A stretch of 30,327 nucleotides of DNA from a virus. The translations under genes were made by a program, and so were the position numbers. This document shows positions 3,247-22,724 of the stretch, piece after piece. The stretch covers positions 1-30,327 of the IMG/VR virus record IMGVR_UViG_3300007522_000045. One strand, written 5' to 3'. The notes below the pieces were generated by a model that worked only from the letters and a program-made list of their open reading frames with translations, was not told the DNA's origin and made no database searches. The number at the start of each line of letters is the position of its first letter. The stretch's first letter is position 1.

Positions 3247-5331
3247 CTATAGGTTCGCCCTCTTAGTCGCCGCCCATAGGTAGCTTTGCGTTGAACCCGT
3301 CCCATTCGTGGCGCGGATAACTCCAGAAGCATCAGAGACAGTGATGTTGCTGCTGCCATTACTCACGATCAACAAGGCCCCGCTTGCCGCCCGCATGATT
3401 GTTCCGAACCAGTATATCGTGGTCGATGTAGAATTTCGCGTGATCCACACGTCCCATATGTCGTCGTTTACAGGCGTGAACAGGTCAAATGTGCCACCCG
3501 AAACAACACTAGAGGCAGAGACGCCATCGTAATTATACATCCGGCCGCCGGAAATCATGGCGACAGACTGCGGCGACAAGTTAGTGATACCATCAGGCAC
3601 GAAATTCGCTGGGCCGATAACGCCAGTGTTGCTGACGTTGTCCTCAACGTAGATGCCTTTCACAAGATACCCGGCGTTGACGTTTATGGCGCTAAGCTCG
3701 AACCCACGCTGCTTGACAACATATATGCCGTAGTCGCTATTGGCCCCCTTCGTAAACCAGCCAGACACCTTCAAGCCGCCGCCGGGATCAACCTCCCCAA
3801 CCATCGCGGGATCAACAAGCATGTCAGCCCTAATAGCCGCGTCTTTAGTTTTGTGGTTGCTCTCGAAGTAAATTCCATCGAAACAAGTGCCGTTTACAAA
3901 TCCTAATATTAGGCCGTGCTGGGCGTTGCCCTCGAATGTGCAAGCATCGAACGTGCAGCCTTTTAGTCGTCCAGCGCGATAGCCCCAAGTGCAGTTATGA
4001 AACTCGCAACCAGTATATGCGTTTGCGTTTTGCAAGCCTTGAGCGCCACCGTTGGCCTTGCAAATGTCCATTCCGTAGCGAGCATTATAAGCATAAATGC
4101 TATCGAAATTGGTAAGGAATACATGGTTTCCCCGGATGGCATCGCCAGTCAAAACAACGGCTGCTTCCAATGGCGCAGGGGTTCCTCCGCGTCCACCAAC
4201 CACAATGTTTCGCAATCTGGAACGGGCAGTGTCGCCACCCTCCCCCAAGATCAGACAAGCCTTGTCTGACGCCATAGAGGCGCTGCCTCGCAAACGGAAG
4301 TCGCTGAATGTGATGTGACGCGCAGAAAGGTCTAACCCTTGGCTATCACCAACCACATCAAAGATCGTACCTGCCCCAGCGCCTTGGATATGTGTATTTG
4401 CGGCAGCGGCCATTGTGCCGGTCAGCAATGAAAAAGCAAATACGCCCGCACCAAACACCAGCTTTTTGCCAGCGGCGACAGTCAGCGCCTTCTGCCATTG
4501 CGATGTGCTTAGCGCACCGTATTTATCAATACCGAAAGCCTCACCTTGGTAGCACCCACCCACCTGACGGTATTTAAACTGAACACCACCCGCAGTTGTG
4601 TCATCAAAAGATGCCGCCTGCGCTAGATCGACCTCAACGGCATAGCCGTCGTAAGTCATTATAATTGTACCGCTGGGGCCATACACCGACCGCAGAAGCG
4701 CTATCGTGCGAGGATCAGCAGTGGCAAGGCCGGCGGCGTCTCTGGACGTGCTGACCGCCTGCCCCGCAATAGCATTCATATTTCGGATGATCTTTCCGTC
4801 AACCTTATCTGGCGCATATGTGCCCGCCGCCAAAATAGCCCACTCACCTTGACCCGGCACAGATACGCGCTGCCCAACCGTCACAAACGACAGCGCCAAC
4901 ATATCCGCAATAGTGTCAGCTGGCTGTACCGTTGCAGAAAGTAGGATTTCCGAATTGTCGCCCTTGATCCACTGCCCCACATATACCGATAAAGATGCGG
5001 CATCTATAATTGCGGTTAATGTGTCATTTTTTGAAAACGAAACGCCGTCAACAACGCCCGCCACGGCCACCCGGAATTGATCACCCGCCATGATAGGACG
5101 CGAGGCATCATCAATCATCACAGATGCCGGAAAACTGCCAAACGACGCGTCAAAGCTGCCCACCAGTCGCGGCACACCCAAATTTGCGATTAACGATCGC
5201 GCATCCCGGTCGCCCGCGTTTATCGCCTCGCGCTGCGGCAGGCTGACCGGCTTTTCAATGTCTGTCGTATTGTCGACACTGCCCAATCCAATTAAAGTGC
5301 GCGATACGACTGGCGTCTGAAATTCGACCAT
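3247..5331 (-). CDS. Tailspike with right-handed beta-helix
   Basis: 694 aa. Residues 1-270 look like a virion-attachment and linker part. From about 290 to 590 there are repeated short beta-strand turns typical of pectate-lyase-like helices (HITFSDFRLRG, FTNFDSIYAYNARYG, YTGCEFHNCTWGYR, GCTFDACTFEGNAQHG, NGTCFDGIYFESNH). The C-terminal 100 residues are beta-rich (STTIYWFGTIMRA). Such proteins bind and often cleave surface polysaccharide. Acidic residues are present but no catalytic set can be assigned. It is followed immediately by the Wzy-like gene, suggesting receptor recognition and receptor modification travel together. GATC density is about half that of the J-like gene upstream. Confidence 0.8.
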   Translation of the reverse strand: MVEFQTPVVSRTLIGLGSVDNTTDIEKPVSLPQREAINAGDRDARSLIANLGVPRLVGSFDASFGSFPASVMIDDASRPIMAGDQFRVAVAGVVDGVSFSKNDTLTAIIDAASLSVYVGQWIKGDNSEILLSATVQPADTIADMLALSFVTVGQRVSVPGQGEWAILAAGTYAPDKVDGKIIRNMNAIAGQAVSTSRDAAGLATADPRTIALLRSVYGPSGTIIMTYDGYAVEVDLAQAASFDDTTAGGVQFKYRQVGGCYQGEAFGIDKYGALSTSQWQKALTVAAGKKLVFGAGVFAFSLLTGTMAAAANTHIQGAGAGTIFDVVGDSQGLDLSARHITFSDFRLRGSASMASDKACLILGEGGDTARSRLRNIVVGGRGGTPAPLEAAVVLTGDAIRGNHVFLTNFDSIYAYNARYGMDICKANGGAQGLQNANAYTGCEFHNCTWGYRAGRLKGCTFDACTFEGNAQHGLILGFVNGTCFDGIYFESNHKTKDAAIRADMLVDPAMVGEVDPGGGLKVSGWFTKGANSDYGIYVVKQRGFELSAINVNAGYLVKGIYVEDNVSNTGVIGPANFVPDGITNLSPQSVAMISGGRMYNYDGVSASSVVSGGTFDLFTPVNDDIWDVWITRNSTSTTIYWFGTIMRAASGALLIVSNGSSNITVSDASGVIRATNGTGSTQSYLWAATKRANL

Positions 5332-20556: not shown

Positions 20557-21236
20557 CACAACGCAGCGCCGATCGGCGCAGATGCCCAAGGCTTCATTGG
20601 CGGCATGGCGTCCGTGACCTTCCACGCCGACAGATCGCGGCCCAGCTGAAACGTCGTGCGCAATTCCAGCAGCGCCGACCAAAACTGCAGATAGCTGCGC
20701 CGCTTGGCTGCGACCGTCGCCGCCGTGCCGACGATCGTGACCGGGCAGTAAAGCACCGGATCCAGCGACACACCGCCGCGCCGCGTCCGACGCTCTGTCG
20801 CCGGCCATCCCGCCTTGCCCAGATCCTTTGCGTCTGCCGTATTGGAAAACAGGCCGTGACGGTTTTGCATGTAGCTGACCGGCACGATCGACACGTCGAC
20901 GCGCCAGTCTGGCAGGATGCCAGCCCGCGCCAGCTCGACAATCTGCAGTGCCATGCGGATCCCGCCGCAGCCCTCCGGCAGTACCGACAGCGCAGACGCG
21001 ACCAGATCCGCGTCGGGATGCGGCGACGACCGACCACCGCCGTCGATCTTGCAGCCGATGCGGCAGCGCTCCATCAGCATCGCCTCCATACTTAGACCGC
21101 CAGCTGGCGCGAATTCGTCCAGATCCAGCTGCGCAAATTCAGCCCGGAAGGCCCAGACGATCAGCTGCCAGATCCCGATTTCACGCGCCGCGCCGGTCGA
21201 CGCCCGTGGCAACGCCGCCAGATCCCGCGCCATCAT
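20556..21236 (-). CDS. Unknown early protein, last large gene before late promoter
   Basis: 226 aa from ATG 21236, which overlaps the upstream stop by one base; the longer open frame is not used. It contains IGIWQLIVWAFRAEFAQLDLDE, a middle part with SIVPVSYMQNRHGLF, and a C-terminal RSYLQFWSALLELRTTF followed by LSAWKVTDAMPPMKPW. Mixed alpha/beta, no membrane segment and no family recognised. The place is that of Q-type antiterminators in lambdoid phages, but sequence gives no support for or against. Confidence 0.75.
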   Translation of the reverse strand: MMARDLAALPRASTGAAREIGIWQLIVWAFRAEFAQLDLDEFAPAGGLSMEAMLMERCRIGCKIDGGGRSSPHPDADLVASALSVLPEGCGGIRMALQIVELARAGILPDWRVDVSIVPVSYMQNRHGLFSNTADAKDLGKAGWPATERRTRRGGVSLDPVLYCPVTIVGTAATVAAKRRSYLQFWSALLELRTTFQLGRDLSAWKVTDAMPPMKPWASAPIGAAL

Positions 21237-21889
21237 CACGCCGCAGCTCCGTCGCGTTTGCTTTGGCCTGCCGCCACGATCGCAGCGACAGCCTGCCGGT
21301 CGCGCTTGTAGGCTTCCAACCACTGCAGATCGACAGGATCAGCTGCGCCGCGCTCAATCCGCCCCCCGATCAGCAGGATCTGCCGCGCCGCATCCTCTGC
21401 CGCCTCCCTGATCAGGCGCAGATCATAGGCCAACGGCGGGCGACCATGCTTTGCAAGGTGCCGATATAGCTCGACCTCGAAACCGCCCGCGATCGCTGCA
21501 GGTCCTTCGATCGACGCAAGCCAGCTGGTCACGATCGGCAGCTGAAACACCGGCGGCGACTGCAGCGCGTGCGCGTGAGACAGGATCGACGTTTCAGGCC
21601 AGATCGTCGCCTTCGGCTTGGCAGCGCCCGCGCCGATCGCATTGGTCACGATCATATCAGCCAGCACGGCCAAAGCCTCCGGCCCCATATACGCCAGCCG
21701 ATCGCTGACCCGCTTGCGCATCGCGGCGTGCGCGTCGACGGTTTCGCCCTTGGCCCGCGTCATGCCAGCTTCATCGATACGATCCCACAGCAGCGCCTGC
21801 ACCCGCGCCCGGCCCTCTGCCCGATCTGCCGCACTGGCCTGCATTGCTCTGCCCTTGTCGCCTTGCCGTTCTGTCGCTGCCGTTTGCAT
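21236..21889 (-). CDS. Unknown helical early protein
   Basis: 217 aa. AAGAGGGG lies upstream of the ATG. An Ala/Arg-rich helical start (AADRAEGRARVQALLWDRI) is followed by MRKRVSDRLAYMGPEALAVLADMI and GFEVELYRHLAKHGRPPLAYDLRLIREAAEDAARQILLIGG. It is transcribed away from the phased boxes at 22033-22123 and is the first gene after them. No known domain recognised. Confidence 0.75.
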   Translation of the reverse strand: MQTAATERQGDKGRAMQASAADRAEGRARVQALLWDRIDEAGMTRAKGETVDAHAAMRKRVSDRLAYMGPEALAVLADMIVTNAIGAGAAKPKATIWPETSILSHAHALQSPPVFQLPIVTSWLASIEGPAAIAGGFEVELYRHLAKHGRPPLAYDLRLIREAAEDAARQILLIGGRIERGAADPVDLQWLEAYKRDRQAVAAIVAAGQSKRDGAAA

Positions 21890-21974
21890 GTCGTGCCCCT
21901 CTTATTTTCTAAGCCTGCCCGCTGTCGTTTTGCGGTGCCGGTGCGTTTGGTGCGTTGCGCCTATTATCTTTTCA

Positions 21975-22123
21975 TTTCTTTTCTTTTTCTTTCTTTTCAG
22001 CGGTCACAAAACTGCGCGAAAAAAAAAGAAAACCGTGCAAATTCCGTGAAATTCCGTGGCAGTTCTGTAAATTTCCGTAACTTTACTGTCGCATTCTGTA
22101 ACTGTCACAGAACCGAACAGAAC
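21975..22123. other. Candidate replication origin / phased iteron array
   Basis: CYGT boxes (mostly TTCCGTG or TTCTGTA) begin at 22033, 22044, 22054, 22065, 22075, 22086 and 22096. The alternating 11/10-base steps average 10.5, one helical turn. Two opposite copies (TTCTGT on the minus strand) follow at about 22107-22123. Next to them are an uninterrupted 24-base pyrimidine run (21975-21998) and a 15-base purine run (22018-22032). The array lies just after a replication-like gene. An origin with initiator iterons is the best explanation; an operator array for the 21889 gene is the alternative. Confidence 0.55.
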
Positions 22124-22124
22124 A

Positions 22125-22724
22125 TTACCGGCCCGTCGCTACCGCGTCGACGCCCTCACGGATTACCGCTTCCGTGCGATTTCCGGTGCAGTTCTGCGTG
22201 AGCCAATGATCAACACGTTCGACAAAAGTGCGATCAGATGCCTGCCGGGTCATGCCCATCGCAACCATCCTTTCGCCGAGATCCCTCAAAGCCTTGGCTG
22301 CGGATCTGCGCTGTCTCTCGACCTCGCGATCGCGGCGCGACCCGATCGCCTTTTCGGCCATTTCAGTCACGACGGGATGCATCAGGCGGACCTGATCGCC
22401 CGCCATGCACGGCACCCAGCCCCGTAGCGGCGACACGTCGCGGGCGCAGAACAGGTGCAGCTGGTCGACGGACATGCCCAGCATGGTCGCGATAAGCTTG
22501 GGATTTTGCGGCAGCGTGCCGACCGGCGTCTGGTCCTGCGAAATCATAATCAAATCGACCATGACTCCGCGCACGTCCCAATCAGCCAGTAGCCGCGCCT
22601 CTGAATTTAGCCAGCGACGGAAATGGAATTCGACAAAAAAATGAGACTGCAAACGCTCTGCGGCGTCGATCGGATAGATCGGCAGCTGGTCATTTGTGAC
22701 GACCTGGAAAACCGGCAGCGCCAT
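22125..22724 (-). CDS. Probable replication-initiation protein (DUF1376-like)
   Basis: 199 aa from ATG 22724 (TGATG overlap with the upstream stop). Residues 1-110 (LPIYPIDAAERLQSHFFVEFHFRRWLNSEARLLADWDVRG then VGTLPQNPKLIATMLGM..LHLFC) resemble the winged-helix region of phage replication proteins with 'V-G-x-L-P' and 'L-A-x-x-L-G' motifs. The C-terminus is basic and helical (RRDREVERQRRSAAKAL). The phased box array lies immediately after its stop. Assignment is by pattern and position. Confidence 0.6.
   Translation of the reverse strand: MALPVFQVVTNDQLPIYPIDAAERLQSHFFVEFHFRRWLNSEARLLADWDVRGVMVDLIMISQDQTPVGTLPQNPKLIATMLGMSVDQLHLFCARDVSPLRGWVPCMAGDQVRLMHPVVTEMAEKAIGSRRDREVERQRRSAAKALRDLGERMVAMGMTRQASDRTFVERVDHWLTQNCTGNRTEAVIREGVDAVATGR

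Follow-up and report, generated by a model that had tools for sequence, protein, structure and literature searches.

A helically phased array of short boxes beside a Rep-like gene as a probable replication origin in a family of Rhodobacterales prophages

What is the role of a row of short boxes, set one helical turn apart, in the gap between two genes of a virus? The question is raised by the window studied here (the whole 30,327-nucleotide stretch of IMG/VR record IMGVR_UViG_3300007522_000045), in which a preliminary description had seen seven or more CYGT cores phased at 10.5 bp and had proposed a candidate phage origin. Re-reading the window sequence, we find the same seven core starts (22033, 22044, 22054, 22065, 22075, 22086 and 22096), together with the 24-base pyrimidine run (21975-21998) and the 15-base purine run (22018-22032) that had been noted next to them. 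The two inverted copies that were said to follow the array also exist (ACAG cores at 22107 and 22117), but all genes in this area run leftward (minus strand), so that in gene sense these copies come first, beside the Rep stop codon. Read in gene sense, the Rep-like gene (22125-22724) is succeeded by two reversed boxes (GTTCTGT), about seven forward boxes, a T-run, one more reversed box, a purine-rich A-tract and the gene at 21236-21889:

22125..22724, minus strand: Rep-like initiator of 199 aa (phrog_22470 profile, AF2 model and Foldseek)
22104..22123, plus strand: reversed boxes, ACAGAAC on the plus strand and GTTCTGT in gene sense, adjoining the Rep stop codon (read from the sequence)
22030..22103, minus strand: main array of 7 boxes, gene sense TTACRGAA / CACGGAA, at alternating 10 and 11 bp (read from the sequence)
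22018..22032, minus strand: gene-sense T-run (the 15-base purine run of the plus strand), separating the array from the last reversed box
about 22000..22012, plus strand: single reversed box against the purine tract, gene sense TTTTGTGACCG / TTTTGTGACCGCTGAAAAG, absent from the preliminary description
21961..21998, minus strand: purine-rich A-tract, gene sense GAAAAGAAAGAAAAAGAAAAGAAATGAAAAGATAATA, a candidate unwinding element and the least stable 40 bp of the gap
21236..21889, minus strand: conserved partner gene for an all-helical protein, directly downstream of the array

Among all 4-mers with one two-fold position, CYGT gives the longest chain at 10/11-base spacing in the window. Local shuffles of the whole window yielded chains of at most 2-3 for CYGT and of 4-5 across all such 4-mer patterns, and shuffles of the gap alone (n=60) reached at most 4; these shuffles, with the conservation in relatives, rule out a chance repeat. 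We also discarded the idea that the array is coding sequence, as it sits between two minus-strand genes and the overlapping opposite-strand ORFs are unsupported.

Searching with an alignment of the Rep protein recovered 80 loci in bacterial genomes (nearly all Rhodobacterales) and 80 in viral contigs, which clustering at 85% Rep identity reduced to 91 clusters, and in nearly all of these an array of words lies directly past the Rep stop. The gaps keep the architecture of the window and are written in other words (TTACGGAA, GGACAGTC, CTGAAATC, GGAAGGAA, GGAACAG, GGACGAAA). The layout of the main array recurs in L006, L011, L065 and others, reversed boxes at the Rep-stop end are common, relatives with the same box type have CCCTTTTTTT runs akin to the T-run of the window, and the reversed box adjoining the tract is kept as TTCTGTGACCGCTGAAAGG. 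The Paracoccus phages Psul1 and Pben1, both reported as active (PMC6536676), have the gene order of the window and different gap words. A further relative, pP66_i of Phaeobacter inhibens (L214, NZ_CP010714.1), is a 33.8-kb circular "plasmid" that is in fact a phage genome, likely a phage-plasmid or an excised phage; its annotation names no replication gene besides this Rep.

The preliminary description had suggested aligning the gap with related prophages, and this comparison upholds the spacing: over 89 non-redundant relatives from public genomes (nearly all Rhodobacterales prophages, and the basis of the period counts) the 10.5-bp step is kept while words and flanks vary. In the first 130 bases past the Rep stop of these 89 loci, identical 5-mers recur 462 times at a lag of 10 (20 expected), 312 times at lag 11 and 344 times at lag 21 (z >50 at all three lags), with further peaks at lags 31-32, 42, 52-53 and 62-63; a control region farther downstream has no such lag peaks. 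When the analysis is confined to the array, the first seven harmonics have centroids that correspond to 10.45-10.55 bp per turn; phase coherence is highest for periods of 10.4-10.5 bp, and 9.5 or 12 fit poorly. Neighbouring boxes are 10 or 11 bp apart in 185 + 67 = 252 cases (2 in the shuffled set). The signal is individually significant (p<0.05) in 79 of the 89 loci; exact 5-mers give no individually significant 10.5-bp signal in the other 10. The plasmid pP66_i scores low on this exact-5-mer measure, yet its boxes are readable by eye.

Is the box itself the unit? One might prefer a 21-bp iteron made of two half-sites for Rep dimers, 10.5 bp being then the half-site spacing. This is a variant that overlaps our preferred explanation rather than opposing it, and we regard it as rather unlikely, although not negligible. 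It would fit the alternation of 10 and 11, which yields exact 21-bp repeats, and the precedent of the lambda iterons, to which O binds as dimers (PMC5043065). The pooled second-neighbour counts, however, are those that arrays of single units predict (about 510 against 650), runs of 10+10 and 11+11 exist, and the number of boxes is not limited to even values.

What reads these words? The similarity of array words between loci tracks the identity of the C-terminal half of Rep (residues 125-198) with a beta of 0.62 (p 0.002, a value that is optimistic, like all Mantel-type or permutation values for related sequences), against 0.09 for the N-terminal half and -0.02 for the downstream gene. The best predictor within the C-half is the long helix (125-156), and the effect persists when the commonest array type is left out. 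Individual pairs say the same. Between the Reps of L023 and L024, identity is 87% over the N-half, drops abruptly around residue 124 and amounts to 26% over the C-half; their array words (GGAAGGA and GGAACAGT) are unrelated. L024 and L030, whose C-halves are 84% identical, use the same words; in L157 and L031 the downstream proteins are 96% identical and both C-halves and arrays differ, and L016/L020 and L017/L018 behave alike. The array words thus follow the Rep C-half, and neither the winged-helix N-half nor the downstream gene. Natural domain swaps, in which the words change along with the C-half, show this directly. As the C-half is encoded beside the array, linkage could contribute to this covariation; we reject simple linkage as its cause, since the downstream gene, which is about equally near, shows no effect. 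In L016 versus L020 and L017 versus L018, Rep and array seem to have moved between phages as one unit, the downstream genes being closely similar, and in the first of these pairs homology picks up again at about the DnaA box.

The protein itself is predicted with high confidence (AlphaFold, pLDDT 95) to consist of a winged-helix domain (about 49-116), a long basic helix of 39 residues (117-155) and C-terminal helices. The phrog_22470 "replication protein" profile matches it (E 2.8e-5), as it does 73 of 85 family members. The gene before the array had been called DUF1376/initiator-like, and this holds as a distant homology by fold, Foldseek placing Rep with viral DUF1376 proteins (E about 1e-5, probability 1.0). 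It does not hold as a Pfam assignment: the window Rep has no Pfam match and does not reach the gathering score of DUF1376 (PF07120), for which 18 of 85 relatives give weak matches (best E 1.6e-4) that are under the curated cut-off. Fold matches in the PDB are weak and include TubR; N-domains of plasmid initiators lead, at E 0.26-1.4, which bears on a possible kinship with RepA_N / pSK41 RepA. A sequence search of the PDB with the Rep profile returned non-significant matches only, to ribosomal proteins and one designed protein. The publication on Psul1 recognised no known replication protein (PMC6536676). In that phage (L007) the gene before Rep, psul1_p21 (3513-4627), which had earlier been proposed as the replication protein, is HTH/NUMOD1-like, and the member of the Rep family is the next gene, psul1_p22; in Pben1 the homologue is Pben1_p32.

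Beyond the array lie further elements of the kind found at origins. Of 88 loci, 52 have a perfect DnaA box (TGTGGATAA) at most 330 bases from the Rep stop, where 0.2 would be expected, and in 51 of these 52 it has the same orientation. Over the whole record, exact TTATCCACA sites are confined to this gap in the complete phage-type replicons Psul1 (1), Pben1 (1) and pP66_i (2). The gap of the window, unlike that of most relatives, contains no recognisable DnaA box, and the opening of its origin may rely on Rep alone or on another host factor. The purine tract is conserved among relatives, and its composition follows the N-half of Rep (beta 0.26, p 0.002), a suggestive link in which relatedness is partly controlled. 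The gaps also hold very unstable 40-bp stretches, which stand out in the window, Pben1 and pP66_i; Psul1 shows this less clearly. Three properties by which iteron-type theta origins are recognised are present here: repeated sites beside an initiator gene, helical phasing of these sites (10.45-10.55 bp), and an adjacent region of low stability (lower stability than that of the tract is seen at only 0.05% of window positions). GC skew was set aside as evidence for an origin, since one-sided transcription makes it uninformative and its extremes lie at or near the record ends.

Two proteins of the phage deserve mention here. Homologues of the partner gene lie downstream in nearly all relatives (158 matches in a profile search); its product is predicted to be all-helical (AF2, pLDDT 92), has no convincing match in Pfam, PHROG or the PDB, and is a candidate helicase loader or Rep partner. 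The GapR-like protein, which had been suggested as a possible ligand of the array, is indeed encoded by the phage (26714-27097, plus strand; PF10073, E 1.7e-15) and adjoins the integrase gene. Nothing connects it to the array, and we have dropped the idea of its binding there.

We think that the gap 21890-22124 is very probably a theta-type replication origin of the phage, with the C-half of Rep on the phased boxes, because a Rep-like neighbour, a low-stability tract, a conserved DnaA box and covariation of array and Rep come together here. The proposal of a candidate phage origin is accordingly strengthened, with a DnaA box that is often unique in the genome, the function being deduced from sequence comparison. 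As to mechanism, Rep would contact the boxes with its C-terminal half, chiefly with the long basic helix, each box taking up roughly one subunit. Since the boxes are one helical turn apart, the subunits would be aligned along a single face of the helix, and neighbours that touch would bind cooperatively. The complex would point at the purine-rich low-stability tract and destabilise it, the reversed box and the tract marking the side to open. In most relatives host DnaA, at the perfect box beyond the tract, would help. Helicase loading would come next, perhaps through the conserved all-helical partner. What is observed is the array with its conserved 10.5-bp period, the architecture of the gap and the agreement of array words with the Rep C-half; that Rep binds, in what number and how cooperatively, that the tract melts and that the gap acts as an origin are all presumed in this scheme. 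An initiator that forms a filament on the array, already suggested in the preliminary description, would be a possible extension of it.

Could the array instead be mainly a transcriptional operator, through which a Rep-like repressor or activator controls the conserved downstream gene? It does lie directly upstream of the gene at 21236-21889, its words track a predicted DNA-binding protein, and phased sites are bound by many regulators. We nevertheless consider this improbable: what comes after the array is a tract of low stability and, as a rule, a consensus DnaA box (often unique in the genome), 73 of 85 family members match a phage "replication protein" profile, and at least seven boxes are too many, even if origin and operator roles may coexist. 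Least credible, to the point that we hardly entertain it, is a role in partition, as a ParR/parC- or TubR/tubC-like centromere by which a phage-plasmid would be maintained, for although ParR-type centromeres typically have direct repeats of about 11 bp, TubR is among the weak fold matches and pP66_i is circular and phage-like, the annotations of pP66_i, Psul1 and Pben1 (in which many genes are unannotated) name no ParM or TubZ, all three carry integrase genes, and the DnaA box and tract suit an origin better.

How does an origin of this kind compare with known ones? Iteron plasmids (P1, F, RK2, R6K, pSC101) likewise have direct, helically phased initiator sites, an A+T-rich region and DnaA boxes; their iterons exceed these boxes in length and are spaced at about two turns, whereas the period here is one turn and the protein combines one winged helix with a basic helix that varies in sequence along with the site. 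The low-affinity DnaA sites of E. coli oriC, spaced about one turn, are likewise tightly packed and guide an oligomer to the unwinding element, but the protein is a different one (no AAA+ domain is predicted in Rep) and the words of our arrays vary with the phage protein. Phage DUF1376 proteins (Rac YdaU, the primosomal protein of Pseudomonas phage Alize) match the N-domain structurally; here, by contrast, the array is outside the gene and no ATPase loader is recognised next door. Lambda, with ori and O, also has a repeat array for a phage initiator by an A+T-rich element, in or beside the initiator gene. Its iterons, inverted repeats of 19 bp to which dimers bind, are located within gene O (PMC5043065), whereas the window has boxes of about 8 bp at 10.5 bp, mostly in one direction and downstream of the gene, and thus lacks the inverted iterons of about 19 bp within an initiator gene that mark the lambda O type. 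The repeats of pMV158 for RepB are direct and one turn apart as well (three tandem 11-bp repeats; PMC4753449), in a short array for an unrelated protein that is a rolling-circle nickase. Phased initiator sites with A+T-rich elements are in themselves an established plan in lambda and iteron plasmids (PMC5043065); we found no earlier description of the arrays studied here in the open-access papers searched.

A replication protein and a probable origin can now be assigned across an entire family of Rhodobacterales prophages. It is conceivable, and we propose it tentatively, that this is a large family of phage origins defined by a one-box-per-turn array, a swappable basic-helix C-module, a constant winged-helix DUF1376-like N-domain with a coupling to the unwinding tract, and a protein filament assembled in phase along duplex DNA. 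If true, this would be a distinct design of initiator and origin, possibly with an in-gene form in the DUF1376 initiators of other Pseudomonadota. Across the relatives the helical phase stays fixed and the site words change in step with the protein module; such a natural series makes two matters testable: by what means a phage initiator shifts its specificity for an origin, and whether Rep-type initiators form filaments, for which one account finds "no evidence" (PMC10797057). A wider sample of DUF1376 proteins (30 loci, found in 28 of the 398 genomes that were sampled from the phylum) shows repeats at 11, 22, 33 and 44 bp enriched about 2.5- to 5-fold past the DUF1376 domain, a signal that comes from a minority of the 30 loci and is mostly in-gene; E. 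coli Rac ydaU has no clear 10.5-bp array. Because of this enrichment, one-turn arrays may be an older trait of the DUF1376 initiator group, with the array in the gene as in lambda. In-gene 11-bp arrays just past the DUF1376 domain are seen in other Pseudomonadota at L189, L184, L187, L188, L192, L208 and L209.
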